From: Prevotellaceae bacterium
Lineage (GTDB): Bacteria; Bacteroidota; Bacteroidia; Bacteroidales; UBA932
Assembly: GCA_031288885.1 (NCBI GenBank)
Contig: JAITQP010000284.1
Span: forward strand, 1 to 12,108
DNA: 12,108 nt
Reading direction: 5' to 3'
Shown here: positions 2,725 through 11,997 of the stretch, piece by piece
Numbering within the stretch: the stretch's first letter is position 1
How the letters are laid out: every line of letters starts with the position of its first letter
The notes under the pieces: generated by a model
The model's database searches: none
What the model was told of the DNA's origin: nothing
Seen by the model: only the letters and a program-made list of their open reading frames with translations
Translations under genes and position numbers: made by a program

Positions 2725-3993
2725 TTACGAAAAATGTTTTAGTAGCGAAATAAACCTGCCCAGCGTCCGCTCGGAGTGCGCGCTCGACAGAAAGTTTGCC
2801 TCAAGCTGCGAGGGCGAAAGATAAAAATTATTTGCCAGCATGTACCTAAAAAAGCTGCCAAAGCGCTGCTGGTCTGCCCGCTTGGCGTCGGCAAACGAGC
2901 GCACCGGATGGCTGGTAAAGAAAAGGGTAAACATCGACCCCATCCTGTTCAGGCGGACGCCCTTGCCGGAGGCAACCTCCGAGAGCTCCGCAAAAAACCG
3001 GTCTGCCTTTTCCTCCAAGCCGGCGTAGTAGCCCTTTTGGCTCAGGATTTGCAGCGTTTTAGCGCCGGCGCTCATCGCCACCGGATTGCCGGACAGGGTG
3101 CCGGCCTGATAAACGGGGCCATCGGGCGCCAGCAGCGCCATCACGTCCGAGCGCCCCCCAAAGGCGGCGGCGGGAAATCCTCCCCCCACAATCTTGCCCA
3201 GCGTGGTTAAGTCCGGACGGACGCCAAGCAGCTGCTGCGCGCCGCCTATCGACAGCCGGAAGCCGGTGATGACCTCGTCGAAGATGAGCAGCGCGCCGTG
3301 CTGCGCGGTGATGCGGCGGAGGAAGGGCAAAAAATCGTTTTCCGGCAGCACCACGCCCATGTTGGCGGGCACCGGCTCCACAACAACGGCGGCAATGTCC
3401 TCCCCCCGCTCCCGAAACGCGCGCGCCACCGCCTCCGCGTCGTTGAACGGCAGGCTCAGCGTGCAGGCGGCAAACGCCTCCGGCACGCCCGCCGACGACG
3501 CGCGGCTCAAGCCGGCAACCCCCGAGCCTGCCGAAACCAGCAGGTGGTCGGCGTGCCCGTGGTAGCAGCCGTCGAACTTGAGGATGATGCTCCGCCGCGT
3601 AAACCCGCGCGCCAGCCGCACGGCGCTCATCACCGCCTCCGTCCCCGAGCTCACAAAGCGGACTTTCTCCATGCTCGGGAAGTGCTGGTTGACTAACCGC
3701 GCCAGCGCCGTCTCCGGCAGGGAGGGGATGCCGTAGCTGGCGCCGTTGGACACGGCTTTCCGAATGGCCTTGTTGACCGACGGGTGCGCGTGACCGAGTA
3801 TAAACACCCCCCACGACAGGCAGAAATCGGTAAACCTGTTTCCGTCAACGTCGGTCAGCGTGTCGCCCTTGGCTTTTCGGATAAACAGCGGCTGCGCGCC
3901 AACGCTCCGCAGCGCCCTCACAGGGCTGTTTACGCCGCCGGAAATGTACCGGAGCGCCTCCTCATATGCCTGAACGGAATTTGTATGCCTCAT
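2725..3993 (-). CDS. hemL: Glutamate-1-semialdehyde 2,1-aminomutase
   Basis: This PLP enzyme converts glutamate-1-semialdehyde to 5-aminolevulinate, the second step of the C5 tetrapyrrole pathway. Its 422 residues match the family. Motifs in order: YISGGVNSPVRA (16-27), SSGTEA (115-120), DGCYHGHAD (141-149), FDEVITGFR (238-246; Asp239 binds the pyridine nitrogen), TLGKIVGGGFPAAAFGG (264-280; Lys267 is the PLP lysine) and GTLSGNP (298-304). All key residues are present, so it should be active. The ATG at 3991-3993 gives the canonical N-terminus. Its leader is AT-rich without a Shine-Dalgarno sequence, and the inverted-repeat arm of the intergenic element begins only 5 nt upstream, so initiation may lie within its reach. 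It works directly after HemA, encoded 189 bp upstream. Confidence 0.96.
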   Translation of the reverse strand: MRHTNSVQAYEEALRYISGGVNSPVRALRSVGAQPLFIRKAKGDTLTDVDGNRFTDFCLSWGVFILGHAHPSVNKAIRKAVSNGASYGIPSLPETALARLVNQHFPSMEKVRFVSSGTEAVMSAVRLARGFTRRSIILKFDGCYHGHADHLLVSAGSGVAGLSRASSAGVPEAFAACTLSLPFNDAEAVARAFRERGEDIAAVVVEPVPANMGVVLPENDFLPFLRRITAQHGALLIFDEVITGFRLSIGGAQQLLGVRPDLTTLGKIVGGGFPAAAFGGRSDVMALLAPDGPVYQAGTLSGNPVAMSAGAKTLQILSQKGYYAGLEEKADRFFAELSEVASGKGVRLNRMGSMFTLFFTSHPVRSFADAKRADQQRFGSFFRYMLANNFYLSPSQLEANFLSSAHSERTLGRFISLLKHFS

Positions 3994-3997
3994 AAAA

Positions 3998-4192
3998 TAA
4001 TGATTAATGATTAGTGATTAATGATTAATGGCGCAAAGCGTGCATCTCCGCTAATGTAAATTTTTATTGGACTTTATTTAATTGTTCCCCTACGGGGAAT
4101 TGGACACGGAAATGGGGTTTAAGCTCGCCCTTGCAAGCCCCATCTGCCACGCTTTGCGCCATTAATCATTAATCATTAACCATTAATCATTA
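3998..4192. repeat. 195-bp inverted-repeat-bounded element between hemA and hemL (MITE/REP-like)
   Basis: Left arm 3998-4042 and right arm 4148-4192 are 45-bp inverted repeats matching at 43 of 45 positions. Each has an outer part of near-perfect TGATTAA heptamers (about five) and an inner core GGCGCAAAGCGTG or its complement. The 105-bp interior contains two further hairpins, TTCCCC-tac-GGGGAA (4085-4099) and ATGGGG...CCCCAT (4112-4143). No open frame fits inside and no target-site duplication is obvious. The right arm covers the last hemA codons and stop, and the left arm stops 5 nt before the hemL ATG, so in the operon mRNA the arms could pair end to end. The inner core plus about 40 bp of interior recurs at 11887-11939. 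Confidence 0.92.
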
Positions 4193-5067
4193 ACTACTCC
4201 CGTTGACCACTTGTAAAACTTGTGCATTTCCTCTTCGATGATTTGCTCTGCTTTTTTTACCTCCATGCCCCGCAGGGAGAGGTTGTTCTGCGCAAATCGC
4301 TCCACGTCGTCCAAGTCGAACAGGCGGACGCCCTCCTGCTGTGCCAGCGCAGGCTCCACGTCCCGCGGAAAGGCGAGGTCGAATATCAGCATTTCCTTTC
4401 CCAGCGGAATGTCCCCCTGCCGGACGATGGCGTGCGGGGCGGAGGTGGCGCAAATCAGCACGTCCGTAAACGCCAGCAGCTGCCGCTTTTGGCTCAGCGG
4501 CGTGGCCGTGCCGTGGTAGCGGGCGGCTAAGGCTTCTGCCTTTTCAAAATTCCGGTTGGACAAAAAAATGTTCACCGCCTGCTTGTCGGTCAGGAACTTC
4601 AGGATGTCCTCCGTGAGCTTGTTAACGCCAATGAGGCTGACGATTTTTTGCCGCAGGTCAACGTTCTCCTGCTTGAGGATGGCCACCGTGACTTGGCTGT
4701 GGGATACGGCGCCTTCGGAAATGCCGGTTTGGCTGCGCACCTTTTTGCCGGTGTGCATGGCGGTTTGAAAAAGCTTGTGGAGCTGGGGCGAGAGCCGGTA
4801 CTTTCCGCAGGCTTCGCGGTAGGCGTTCTTCAGCTGCCCCTGAATAGCCCGCTCGCCGGTGATGCCGGACTCCAAGCCCGAGGCAACGCGGTAGAGGTGC
4901 CGGAGAATGTCGTTGGGCATTTCGCCCTCGCCCCAGTACAGCTCCGTGCGGTTGCACGTTTTGAGCAGCACGTGCGGCGTGCCCTCGCCCATCCGGATGG
5001 CGCCGGAGAGCGCCTCCCGCTCCGCTAAGGTGTGGTGGGCATTGTTGACCTGCCTGCACTGTATCAT
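4183..5067 (-). CDS. hemA: Glutamyl-tRNA reductase, short form lacking the C-terminal dimerisation domain
   Basis: GluTR reduces glutamyl-tRNA(Glu) to glutamate-1-semialdehyde with NADPH. The start is the ATG at 5065-5067, which overlaps the upstream TGA as ATGA and gives a proper N-terminus; the frame continues farther upstream only as overlap. Motifs: KTCNRTELYW (36-45; Cys38 is the catalytic nucleophile), HLYRVASGLESGITGE (57-72), IQGQLKNAY (75-83), GKKVRSQTGISEGAVSHS (107-124), NADPH domain about 140-240 with LSNRNFEKAEALA (169-181), and AEQIIEEEMHKFYKW (273-287) from the spinal helix. The glycine-rich nucleotide motif is degenerate (LIGVNKLTEDI). At 294 residues it is some 100-120 shorter than typical GluTR: the protein stops within the spinal helix, before the dimerisation domain, exactly where the repeat arm starts. 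It is either a lineage-specific short form or a truncated gene. Confidence 0.9.
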   Translation of the reverse strand: MIQCRQVNNAHHTLAEREALSGAIRMGEGTPHVLLKTCNRTELYWGEGEMPNDILRHLYRVASGLESGITGERAIQGQLKNAYREACGKYRLSPQLHKLFQTAMHTGKKVRSQTGISEGAVSHSQVTVAILKQENVDLRQKIVSLIGVNKLTEDILKFLTDKQAVNIFLSNRNFEKAEALAARYHGTATPLSQKRQLLAFTDVLICATSAPHAIVRQGDIPLGKEMLIFDLAFPRDVEPALAQQEGVRLFDLDDVERFAQNNLSLRGMEVKKAEQIIEEEMHKFYKWSTGVVND

Positions 5068-5528
5068 TGTAGCTTTATGACTTCGGTTTTTACCAGCTCG
5101 CCTATCCGGTTGCGGATGTCGATGGATTGGCGGGCGCTTTGCGCGTTGGACGACACGGCAATGGTAACGTTGCCCTCCTTGTGCACGGCGGGCGACGTAA
5201 AGTCGCAGAGGGCGGGGTTGTCGCACACGCTGGCAAGTATCCCCTGACGGGCGCACTCCTCCTTTATCTCCCTGTTCAGCCGTTCGCTCCCCGTGCAGAT
5301 GTAAACCAAAAAAAAGCCCGCCAAATCGTCCGGCTCGTAAACTTTTTGCACGCGCTCAAACGGGAGCAGCTCAAAGCCGGTGTGAAACTCGGGCGCCACC
5401 ACCCGCACATTCTCCGTGAAGCGGGACAGGACAGACGCCTTATGAAACGCTACCCGTCCGCCCCCAACAAGGAGTATGTTTTTTCGGGTAATGTTGATGC
5501 ATATCGGTAAAAATTGCAGCCTTTCCAT
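5064..5528 (-). CDS. Met8-type precorrin-2 dehydrogenase / sirohydrochlorin ferrochelatase (siroheme synthase N-terminal type)
   Basis: This 154-residue protein corresponds to the N-terminal module of CysG or to Met8, which oxidises precorrin-2 with NAD and can insert iron to give siroheme. It has the Rossmann motif LLVGGGRVAFHKA (19-31) and the family block VCDNPALCDFTSP (101-113), where Asp103 lies at the position of the catalytic Asp of CysG/Met8. The next strand, VTIAVSSNAQSARQSIDIRN (121-140), matches the usual VAISSGGKSP region but with less typical residues. It lacks the methyltransferase (SUMT) half of CysG, so precorrin-2 must come from a gene elsewhere. The start ATG at 5526-5528 is 8 nt beyond the peptidase stop. 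The stop overlaps the hemA start as ATGA, implying translational coupling. Confidence 0.87.
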   Translation of the reverse strand: MERLQFLPICINITRKNILLVGGGRVAFHKASVLSRFTENVRVVAPEFHTGFELLPFERVQKVYEPDDLAGFFLVYICTGSERLNREIKEECARQGILASVCDNPALCDFTSPAVHKEGNVTIAVSSNAQSARQSIDIRNRIGELVKTEVIKLQ

Positions 5529-8235: not shown

Positions 8236-9195
8236 CTACTGCGCCGCTACAGCTACGGAGCACGCACAAGCGTTAACGCTTGTGCTATCGGACAGCGTTT
8301 GCGCCACGCCGTTTTTCCATACCTTTGCCACCGTTCTTTCGCAGCCTGCCACGTACACATCGCTGCCCACTACGTAAACAGAGCGCGCCTCCGTGCCGTC
8401 GGCAAGCTCCTGCGCCACGCCGTTTTTCCACACGGTGGCAACCTCGCCTTTGCTGCCCGCCACAAAAACATCGCGCCCCGACACGCAAACGAACAGCGCC
8501 TCTGCGCTTTCGCCGCTGCCGGAGAGGGCTTGCGCCTCGCCGTTTTTCCAGAGCATGGCGGTTTCATTTTCGTAGCCCGACACGTACACATCGCTGCCCG
8601 ACACGTAAACCGAGTAGGCTTTTGCGTCGCTTTCGCCCGTGGGCTTGGAGAGCGCCTGCGCCACGCCGTTCTTCCACACCGTAGCCACCTCGTTGTCGTG
8701 ACCTGCCACGTACACGTCGCTGCCCGACACGTAAACCGAGTAGGCCTCTGCGTCGTTCTCGCCCGCGTTTTGGGAGAGCGCCTGCGCTTCGCCGTTTTTC
8801 CATATCGTAGCCACCTCGTTGTCGTGACCTGCCACGTACACGTCGCTGCCCGAAATGTACAGCGCGTAGGCCGCAGCGTTGCGGTCATCCGCCGTTTTGG
8901 AGAGCGTTTGCGCCACGCCGTTTTTCCACACCGTAGCCACCTCATTTTCGTAACCTGCCACGTACACGTCGCTCCCCAGTACGCAAACAAAATTGGCGGA
9001 TGCGTCCTCTGCGCCGTTGGAGAGCGTCTGCACCTCGCCGTTTTTCCATACCGTGGCAACGTTTATACCGTTTGCGTTTTCTTCGTAGCCCGCTACATAT
9101 ACGCTCACGTTGCTGCCCGCGTTGCACGAAACAACCATTGCAGCCAATGCGGTTAGCCCCAGCATATCTGATATAAATTTTTTGGATGTTTTCAT
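8236..9195 (-). CDS. Lipoprotein of seven WKNG repeats, probable beta-propeller
   Basis: The start is the ATG at 9193-9195 (319 residues); a TTG two codons earlier is also in frame but unlikely. A lysine-bearing N-terminus and hydrophobic stretch end in the lipobox AMVVSC, with Cys24 as the lipidation site. From residue 29 to the end there are seven tandem repeats of 37-46 residues (starts 29, 75, 117, 159, 201, 241, 278), each with SDVYVAGYENEVATVWKNG-like sequence followed by AQ-LS and a variable acidic stretch. Seven units of this size fit a single closed beta-propeller that begins almost directly after the lipid anchor. Similar VAGYE/WKNG repeat proteins occur in Bacteroidota with no known function; surface or periplasmic binding is a guess. 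The C-terminal repeat has extra cysteines (AGCERT, NACACS). No enzymatic motif is seen. Confidence 0.85.
   Translation of the reverse strand: MKTSKKFISDMLGLTALAAMVVSCNAGSNVSVYVAGYEENANGINVATVWKNGEVQTLSNGAEDASANFVCVLGSDVYVAGYENEVATVWKNGVAQTLSKTADDRNAAAYALYISGSDVYVAGHDNEVATIWKNGEAQALSQNAGENDAEAYSVYVSGSDVYVAGHDNEVATVWKNGVAQALSKPTGESDAKAYSVYVSGSDVYVSGYENETAMLWKNGEAQALSGSGESAEALFVCVSGRDVFVAGSKGEVATVWKNGVAQELADGTEARSVYVVGSDVYVAGCERTVAKVWKNGVAQTLSDSTSVNACACSVAVAAQ
8239..9111 (-). repeat. Seven tandem coding repeats of about 110-138 bp
   Basis: The repeats of the lipoprotein are visible at DNA level. Units 3 (8722-8847) and 4 (8596-8721) are the closest pair: both are 126 bp, share the run from the GHDNEVAT codons to SGSDVYVAG, and differ mainly in the variable loop. 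The WKNG motif is followed by Glu in units 1, 3 and 5 and by Val in units 2, 4, 6 and 7, suggesting that pairs of units were duplicated. Units are not identical and have no spacers, so this is not a CRISPR array. Confidence 0.9.
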
Positions 9196-9255
9196 TTCCA
9201 ATAATTTAGGTTAATTTTGGCTTGTTCAAAGCCCACGTTAAATGATACAAAGATG

Positions 9256-9341: not shown

Positions 9342-9467
9342 TTAAGAATTAAAAACTAAGAACTTAGCGTCCATAATTTATTCAAAAAAAATCTTCAACA
9401 TTAAACTAAAACGAGGTAGAATTGAACAAAATAATAAATCTCCAAATTCCTAATTTTTAATTCTTAA
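9342..9467. repeat. Inverted repeat of TTAAGAATTAAAAA type
   Basis: Arms of 21 bp at 9342-9362 and 9447-9467 match at 19 positions and enclose 84 bp without a reading frame. The arrangement (A/T-rich arms built of TAAGAAT/TAAAAAC words around a short non-coding core) parallels the hemA-hemL element but the sequences differ. Confidence 0.7.
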
Positions 9468-10599: not shown

Positions 10600-11598
10600 A
10601 TGGCACTATTTGAAAGCTACGACCGCCGCATTAAGCAGGTAAATGCGGCGCTTAACCAATACGGAATAAAAGACCTCGACGAGGCAAAAAAGATTTGCGC
10701 CGACAAGGGCATTGACGCTTACCAGCTCTGCAAGGACATTCAGCCCATTGCGTTTGAGAACGCAGGGTGGGCTTACGTGGCGGGCTGCGCCATTGCCATC
10801 AAAAAGGGCGCCAAAAAGGCGGCGGACGCGGCGCAAGCCATTGGCGAAGGCTTGCAGGCGTTCTGCATCCCGGGCTCCGTGGCCGACGACCGCAAGGTGG
10901 GCATCGGGCACGGAAATTTGGCGGCCATGCTGCTGCGCGAAGAAACAAAGTGCTTTGCGTTCCTCGCGGGGCACGAGAGCTTTGCCGCCGCCGAGGGCGC
11001 CATTGGCATTGCCAAGTCGGCAAACCGCGTGCGCAAGGAGCCGCTGCGCGTAATCCTCAACGGGCTGGGCAAGGACGCCGCCATGATTATCTCGCGCATC
11101 AACGGGTTTACCTACGTGCAAACGCAGTTTGACTACGCCACCGGCGAGCTGAAGGTGGTGAGGGAAAAAGCCTACTCCACCGGCGACCGCGCCAAGGTGA
11201 AGTGCTACGGCTGCGACGACGTGCGCGAGGGCGTTGCCGTAATGCGCAGCGAGGGCGTGGATGTTTCCATCACCGGCAACTCCACCAACCCCACGCGCTT
11301 TCAGCACCCCGTGGCGGGCACCTACAAGAAAGAGTGCATGGAGCAGGGACGAAAGTACTTTTCGGTAGCTTCAGGCGGCGGCACAGGCCGCACGCTGCAC
11401 CCCGACAACATGGCCGCAGGCCCCGCCTCCTACGGCATGACCGACACGCTGGGGCGCATGCACGGCGACGCGCAGTTTGCAGGCTCATCGTCGGTGCCGG
11501 CGCACGTTGAGATGATGGGCTTTCTGGGCATGGGCAACAACCCTATGGTGGGCGCTACCGTGGCGGTAGCCGTTGCCGTGGAGGAGGCGATGAAGTAG
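10600..11598 (+). CDS. GGGtGRT family protein
   Basis: This 332-residue protein carries the family's namesake GGGTGRT at 259-265, within FSVASGGGTGRTLHPDN. The family is found mainly in anaerobic bacteria and its biochemical role is not established; it regularly follows the NifU-like gene, as here. Visible features: an Ala/Lys-rich helix (about 64-84), a glycine-rich GIGHGNLAAMLL (101-112), a CYGC pair (Cys202 and Cys205), and other cysteines at 33, 44, 63, 89, 118 and 246 that could bind a metal or cluster. The C-terminus is Gly/Met-rich (MMGFLGMGNNPMVGATVAVA). There is no signal peptide, so a cytoplasmic location is expected. Length and reading frame look complete. It probably receives or acts on a cluster with the upstream scaffold (inference). 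Confidence 0.93.
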   Translation: MALFESYDRRIKQVNAALNQYGIKDLDEAKKICADKGIDAYQLCKDIQPIAFENAGWAYVAGCAIAIKKGAKKAADAAQAIGEGLQAFCIPGSVADDRKVGIGHGNLAAMLLREETKCFAFLAGHESFAAAEGAIGIAKSANRVRKEPLRVILNGLGKDAAMIISRINGFTYVQTQFDYATGELKVVREKAYSTGDRAKVKCYGCDDVREGVAVMRSEGVDVSITGNSTNPTRFQHPVAGTYKKECMEQGRKYFSVASGGGTGRTLHPDNMAAGPASYGMTDTLGRMHGDAQFAGSSSVPAHVEMMGFLGMGNNPMVGATVAVAVAVEEAMK

Positions 11599-11674
11599 CT
11601 AAGAACTAAGAGTTAAGAACCATAAGAGCTGTGGTGGCTGCCGATTGCGCAGCAGCCCAGCTTGTATTAAGCCA

Positions 11675-11791: not shown

Positions 11792-11903
11792 GCACGCCTC
11801 GCGTCATTGTAAGCGGAGCGAAGCAACCCGGAATACTTCATTGAACTTTGTTGCACGCTATATTGGCTACACCGAGCTCCGCTCGCAATGACGCAAGGCG
11901 TGC
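11792..11903. repeat. REP/MITE-like inverted repeat with GCGTCATTG core
   Basis: Arms 11792-11819 and 11876-11903 (28 bp) match at 25 positions as inverted copies of GCACGCC(T/C)TGCGTCATTG plus an AGCGGAGC tail, around a 56-bp spacer. The CGTCATTG-AGCGGAGCGAAGCAA wording resembles palindromic repeats seen in many bacterial genomes (from memory). The right arm continues outward into sequence (to about 11939) homologous to the inside of the 3998-4192 element. Confidence 0.85.
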
Positions 11904-11997
11904 CTCTCCGTTAATGTACATTTTATTAGACTTATATAATGTGTACAACAATTCCCCATACATCCCATAGCTTTTTAGGATTTTCGGCAAAAATGCA

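Follow-up and report, generated by a model that had tools for sequence, protein, structure and literature searches.

A heptamer-array element between hemA and hemL belongs to a dispersed family found at stop codons and shares its array ends with PF05635 cassettes

According to PMC4990558, intervening sequences (IVSs) of rRNA genes have been proposed to be mobile, the Coxiella IVS contains a 28-bp stem that RNase III cleaves in vitro, and the function of the S23/IVP protein of such sequences is not known. Short heptamer repeats have been reported in several unrelated bacteria. Excerpts of PMC4692102 describe the 7-nt units GGGAATC of Xanthomonas, mostly in four copies, and GGGGA(T/C)T of Nostoc. 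Most of these downstream repeats lie on the coding strand within 50 bp of stop codons, some overlapping them, and GGGAATC forms facing pairs in 70 and 75 cases in two xanthomonads. The TAACTGA repeats of Beggiatoaceae, Cyanobacteria and Bacteroidetes are presented in passages of PMC4679880 as strain-specific 7-nt arrays at gene boundaries, which contain stops in three frames and sometimes overlap the upstream stop codon. In Porphyromonas gingivalis, the BrickBuilt MITE has a 23-nt tandem unit and occurs in 19 copies in one strain, as given in an extract of PMC4596501.

The element described here lies between hemA and hemL in a 12,108-nt stretch of DNA from a Prevotellaceae bacterium, hereafter the window, and has inverted arrays of the heptamer TTAATGA at its ends. 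Like an rRNA IVS with an S23p/PF05635 ORF, it is a foldback with terminal inverted repeats, although its stem is a predicted one, and PF05635 genes are found in related cassettes. Unlike an IVS, it is located in a protein operon outside any rRNA gene, its ends are heptamer arrays, it contains no ORF and its cleavage is a prediction. It shares unit length, facing pairs and gene-end placement with the Xanthomonas and Nostoc repeats. However, in the excerpts those repeats were interpreted as G-quadruplexes, whereas TTAATGA has no G-tracts. The TAACTGA arrays are similar in having a 7-nt unit, stops in all frames and a gene-boundary placement, but in the passages cited they lie mostly by start codons in the Guaymas genome, are mostly unpaired and have been suggested to bind a translational regulator. 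BrickBuilt, from a related group, is also intergenic with tandem units and inverted ends; its 23-nt unit, however, is inside the element, and the extract gives its distance to the closest genes as 49-591 nt. Neither S23 nor four helix appears as a term in the main texts of PMC4692102 and PMC4679880. Searches of open-licence literature gave no paper that, by title or abstract, deals with array-flanked PF05635 genes in protein operons or connects the heptamers with PF05635, and none with the exact string ttaatgattaatg. We consider the hemA-hemL feature likely to be a non-autonomous, ORF-less copy of a mobile foldback cassette.

Structure of the hemA-hemL element and empty junctions in relatives

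The operon is encoded on the minus strand, where hemA (glutamyl-tRNA reductase; 4183-5088; Pfam GlutR_N and Shikimate_DH) is the upstream and hemL (aminotransferase class III; 2725-3993; Pfam Aminotran_3) the downstream host gene. The five junctions taken from the ORF list are 8 nt, an overlap, 189 nt (hemA-hemL), 18 nt and 47 nt, so that the hemA-hemL junction is the sole wide one, as had been remarked in the initial annotation. A repeat search in the window identified two arms at 3998-4042 and 4148-4192, each of 45 nt, complementary at 43 of 45 positions (96%) and 105 nt apart. Each arm contains about 4.5 heptamers, reading TTAATGA in the direction from gene to interior, followed by a core, GGCGCAAAGCGTG. 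The left array (TAATGATTAATGATTAGTGATTAATGATTAAT; 3998-4029, plus strand) is separated at its outer end by 4 nt from the hemL start codon (3991-3993) and continues into the left core (4030-4042, plus strand). The right core reads GGCGCAAAGCGTG on the minus strand (4148-4160) and is adjoined by the right array, which reads TTAATGATTAATGGTTAATGATTAATGATTAAT on the same strand (4161-4193). The interior contains an inner module (CATCTCCGCTAATGTAAATTTTTATTGGACTTTATTTAATTG; 4043-4084, plus strand) with a 27-nt heart (4046-4072), as well as a small hairpin (TTCCCCTACGGGGAA; 4085-4099) and a second hairpin (ATGGGG...CCCCAT; 4112-4143), both in the predicted fold.

The stop codon of hemA (TAA; 4183-4185, minus strand) comes from the right array. 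A TTAATGA array contains TAA in all three frames and therefore closes any incoming frame. The HemA protein ends in STGVVND after a conserved W, and its last residues VND are encoded by the array, except for the first base of the V codon. The minus-strand RNA of 3970-4220 had a predicted folding energy of -96.5 kcal/mol, compared with -53.7 +/- 4.1 kcal/mol for 200 dinucleotide shuffles (z = -10.5), none of which was as good. In this predicted fold, the stop of hemA and the start of hemL come to lie near each other. The initial annotation had described the inverted repeat with two inner hairpins, its overlap with the hemA stop and a pairing of the arms that would bring this stop to the hemL initiation region; the repeat and the overlap were recovered here, and the pairing fits the predicted fold. 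An Rfam scan of the window found no family at gathering score, and a scan of the element detected no sigma-70-like promoter, the only promoter type covered, and no intrinsic terminator.

The nearest named relatives of this hemA are in metagenome-assembled genomes (MAGs) of Bacteroidales, some labelled Symbiothrix, Dysgonamonadaceae or Prevotellaceae, which we take to originate from termite guts. Among ten close hemA loci (L070 and L089 being counted as one), hemA is next to hemL in five (L071, L081, L082, L087 and L088), no hemL is found behind hemA in the stretch covered in three, and the contig ends too early in two. The loci L072-L077, six hemA genes of greater distance, showed no hemL match within the flank covered and were left out of the count. 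The search for hemA-hemL junctions free of the element, which the initial annotation had proposed, thus gave a uniform answer: the element is absent from all five contiguous relatives. In these, hemA and hemL overlap at stop and start, through ATGA in four and over 8 nt in L088, and in L071 and L081 ten different residues occupy the place of the array-derived HemA end. The absence of the element together with this overlap indicates that the element is an insertion. By comparison of these sequences, it appears to have split an overlapping, probably translationally coupled hemA-hemL pair and to have replaced the end of hemA. An assembly error caused by the repeat was discounted, since the relatives keep the hemA-hemL order. 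In a DNA search of 60 genomes, in which up to 13 candidates were scored per genome and weak copies and relatives with other units (e.g. G001) were missed, the element matched at least three, its own included, all among the 11 of its genus. The unit in the genome G008 is TTAATGG, and the genome G002 has TTAATGA with related or other cores.

These junctions also bear on the possibility that selection maintains the element as a cis-regulatory RNA in the hem operon, which would keep the translational coupling or processing of hemA-hemL. The strong predicted fold that joins stop and start is consistent with such a role, and so is the overlap seen in all five contiguous relatives. However, not one of these relatives has the element, the same architecture is found behind many unrelated genes, and Rfam gave no family. 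In addition, the element at L049 has a TTAGTGA unit in one arm and TTAATGA in the other, without compensation; as the arms of one element can thus differ in unit, no sign of compensatory change was seen. We regard a selected role of this kind as unlikely. The hemL-specific control suggested in the initial annotation is not supported, given the same absence and the same occurrence behind unrelated genes.

The element family and its position at stop codons

Reading the feature as a copy of a mobile cassette calls attention to the rest of the genome, which is a MAG with 79% completeness. The search for further copies, also proposed in the initial annotation, yielded 84 copies of a pattern that represents the arm by two heptamers and the core, with up to 3 mismatches allowed, and none of its reversed control. 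Across the genome, a heptamer triple had 261 matches including overlapping ones (control, 20), the core alone 635 (control, 122) and the 27-nt heart of the inner module 21 copies when up to 3 mismatches were allowed (reversed control, none). Scoring of 40 of the 220 candidates from a BLAST search of the same genome yielded at least 114 matches with E values up to 10. The copy set of this genome (G000) comprises 99 loci including the window, with 263,371 bases and 87 arms at up to 4 mismatches. The number of units per array varies from about 2 to 9, the heptamer arms occur with and without the GC-rich core, and many array copies then carry a GGGCGGGTTTNAAACCCGCCC hairpin. By eye, the arrays as a rule run from gene to spacer in the manner of terminal inverted repeats.

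With its multiple copies, inverted ends and lack of an ORF, the element resembles a MITE, but it departs from this class in target-site duplication, for which 19 two-armed elements gave no signal (mean shared word of 3.53 against 3.45 when swapped). There is therefore no direct mark of transposition. No insertion polymorphism was seen within species, and viral contigs contained no exact match to two arm patterns. The initial annotation had suggested that the element could be a domesticated mobile repeat; the 84 arm copies agree with a dispersed, mobile-looking repeat, whereas its absence from the five contiguous relatives leaves domestication unsupported.

Several other repeats were observed in the window. 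A 7-nt array (CTAAGAA CTAAGAG TTAAGAA; 11596-11619) directly follows the stop of the ORF at 10600-11598. An intergenic inverted repeat at 9342-9467 has the arms TTAAGAATTAAAAACTAAGAACTT and AAATTCCTAATTTTTAATTCTTAA with 78 nt between them and is possibly a decayed cassette. At 11792-11940, an inverted pair (GCACGCCTCGCGTCATTG / CAATGACGCAAGGCGTGC) stands before a diverged version of the inner module, of which the genome has 21 closer copies. The minus-strand ORF at 8236-9201 is made of repeats of about 126 nt, encoding a recurrent VYVAG...WKNG motif, and the ORF at 1-498 contains a 203-nt direct duplication, 96% identical and 282 nt from start to start. In G008, arm-plus-hairpin units are adjacent head to tail at L151, L155 and L156, as if inserting into, or duplicating beside, earlier ones.

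Gene ends were assigned with a simple codon-usage gene caller, which placed 46 arms behind a gene 3' end, 18 before a 5' end and 23 without a called neighbour or at a contig edge. The arms behind genes were concentrated at the stop codon, 37 of the 46 beginning between -30 and +22 nt from it. In 18 of the 46 the stop is inside the array, as for hemA, and the offsets of -4, -11 or -18 are those of the three reading frames of TAA in TTAATGA. At L098, the reading frame goes 30 nt in, beyond the arm. Such closeness to stops was found for 4 of 39 spacer hairpins, 0 of 38 CGTCATTCC repeats and 1 of 25 heptamer-less cores. The inner module is near gene 3' ends (-7 to +7 nt) in 4 of 10 cases on its right side and in 0 of 5 on its left, and this nearness counts against the cassette reading.

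Because any frame that enters an array must stop there, orthology provides the independent test. We compared 12 arm-flanked genes of G000, picked among 33 eligible ones as recognisable and conserved (including MiaB-, PheS-, IF2-, ClpX- and Era-like genes, named by eye), with their orthologs in G001, G003 and G008. After two of 29 ortholog ends were dropped as too near a contig end, none of the remaining 27 had an array of at least two units within 300 nt. The G000 proteins terminate within a few codons of their orthologs, as judged by eye. According to the simple caller, trained on G000, the next gene is within 90 nt at 11 ortholog ends and beyond this distance at 12, with none called at four. 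Tight operons alone were rejected as a full account of the stop-codon positions, given these 12 ends; tight spacing may account for part of them, as at hemA-hemL, but not all.

PF05635 genes between inverted arrays

In G002, two copies of the element enclose a gene for a 118-aa protein within an ABC-transporter-like operon (gene names by eye). This protein belongs to PF05635, the 23S rRNA-intervening sequence protein family, with 2rld as a solved relative (E 3.2e-42). The genome of the hemA-hemL element itself encodes a PF05635 gene between (TTAATGA)n arrays (C59:1537-1851). Here the upstream gene, FtsW by eye, ends in ...RSQEKEEEEIMIND with its stop in the array, and the downstream gene, MurG by eye, begins with MRIIISGGGTGGHIFPALAIAGAL; this geometry, with a stop in the array and the next gene after it, is that of hemA-hemL. 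In G002, a PF05635 cassette at C226 is bounded by TTAATGA arrays, and G008 (C215) has a shortened PF05635 gene with local TTAATGG arrays. The PF05635 cassette of G001 (C141) has different arrays, but contains the GCGCAAAGCGC core twice per side. TTAATGA and an AATTCCT-type heptamer are the units of two PF05635 cassettes of G000. Across the G000 loci, TTAATGA forms 77 arrays, the loci having been chosen for it, and the AATTCCT-type, for which they were not chosen, 17 versus 1, while the units of PF05635 cassettes from two other genomes gave 0 and 0 arrays. Neither this link to PF05635 cassettes nor the position at stop codons had been noted in the initial annotation. Since the 105-nt interior of the hemA-hemL element contains no PF05635 ORF, we refer to it as an ORF-less relative and not as a full cassette. 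Lacking this gene, and with a core unlike that of the C59 cassette, it is not shown to descend from that cassette or to have given rise to it.

Of 119 genomes from the order, 85 had a PF05635 match, as did 157 of 198 in a phylum sample. For a comparison of flanks, the 250 nt upstream of each gene were aligned to the reverse complement of the 250 nt downstream, with all cross-locus pairs as the control. The genus and order set consisted of 46 loci, obtained from 55 PF05635 loci by removing seven with stops inside or below the cut-off and two with too short flanks. The median score was 18.5 against 8.5 for cross-locus pairs; 26 of the 46 were above the 99th percentile, and the own partner was the best one in 32. 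A replicate of 30 loci from the phylum, assembled after the pattern had been noticed, was weaker: the median was 13.0 against 8.5, with 10 of 30 above the 99th percentile, 18 above the 95th and the own partner best in 10. For 16 plasmid loci (16 of 25 records, with hosts mostly Cyanobacteria and also Bacteroidota, Spirochaetota, Bacillota and Chloroflexota), the median was 26.3 against 9.0, seven were above the 99th percentile and the own partner was best in 12. A score of at least 17.5 was reached by 13 of 15 intact plasmid PF05635 genes and by 0 of 30 neighbouring plasmid CDS controls. The 15 exclude L261, whose reading frame is interrupted early by an in-frame stop and which has no CDS annotation; this broken gene scored 15.0, 19.0 or 8.0 depending on the chosen end. 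The best period of the 13 high-scoring plasmid genes was 7 in 11 and 14 in two. Chromosomal loci with scores of at least 17.5 showed a period of 7, 8, 14 or 15 where it was clear, and it was unclear in 10 of 27 and 5 of 9 (15 of 36 in all). Many PF05635 genes have no clear inverted flanks.

On the plasmids, eight of nine co-directional upstream CDSs, judged by eye, have their stop codon within or at the array, and the PF05635 genes lie between partners such as hsdS/hsdR or cas2/cas1. The order cas2-PF05635-cas1 was observed in an Anabaena plasmid (L263) and a Nostoc plasmid (L264; 1036-3127), and a PF05635 gene of Pseudanabaena is beside cas1.

The shared arrays weigh on a different origin, in which REP/BIME-like palindromes were moved by a RAYT (Y1) transposase unconnected to PF05635 and the heptamers are incidental tails. 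Short dispersed inverted units by gene 3' ends are reminiscent of the REPs described in PMC3733652, and the absence of a target-site duplication would also fit. On the other hand, the 79% complete genome has no PF01797 match, the arms are tandem heptamers that also occur without the GC-rich core, and a PF05635 gene is flanked by the same arrays; such an origin seems improbable to us. It is slightly more doubtful still that the arrays are simple repeats grown by slippage at stops and selected as translation or transcription stops, with no inserted element, as their variable unit number, their stops in every frame and the hairpin after many copies might suggest, because facing pairs enclose variable interiors and PF05635 genes, one unit type is common across the genome and no terminator was called in the hemA-hemL copy.

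A possible cassette cycle and its implications

If the hemA-hemL feature is a copy of a mobile foldback cassette, the ends of the cassette would be inverted (TTAATGA)n arrays followed by a GCGC-AAA-GCG core, and its interior would be variable. Full cassettes of the same kind would carry, between such arrays, the gene for the four-helix-bundle protein of PF05635, and this protein may act in the spread of the family. The copy described here would have inserted at the 3' end of hemA, at a junction in which the two genes had previously overlapped by stop and start. With TAA in three frames, the array would close any incoming frame after at most six codons, which in hemA happens after VND. In the transcript, the two arms could pair as a stem of about 45 bp, looping out the insert and leaving the stop of hemA close to where hemL starts. 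By analogy to rRNA intervening sequences, this stem is a likely RNase III substrate. The element might break the coupling between hemA and hemL, or keep it by folding.

A broader reading can be offered tentatively, and we hold it to be possible rather than probable. PF05635 (S23/IVP) would mark widespread mobile foldback cassettes with inverted arrays of 7-8-nt units that vary by locus, which insert at stop codons in such a way that the upstream gene is terminated by the array itself. The intervening sequences of rRNA genes would be a special instance, inserted in rRNA, and the GGGAATC, TAACTGA and cyanobacterial arrays would be ORF-less relatives. With the ends of coding sequences and rRNA as the targets, insertion might use transcripts, or it might proceed via a reverse-transcribed copy. 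The heptamer repeats of unrelated bacteria have so far been explained separately, as quadruplexes or as sites for a translational regulator. If they are the ends of one class of cassettes, there would be a single, genome-wide testable account of these repeats and of S23/IVP. If true, this would be a selfish element that spares its host through all-frame stops and a foldback looped out of the transcript.
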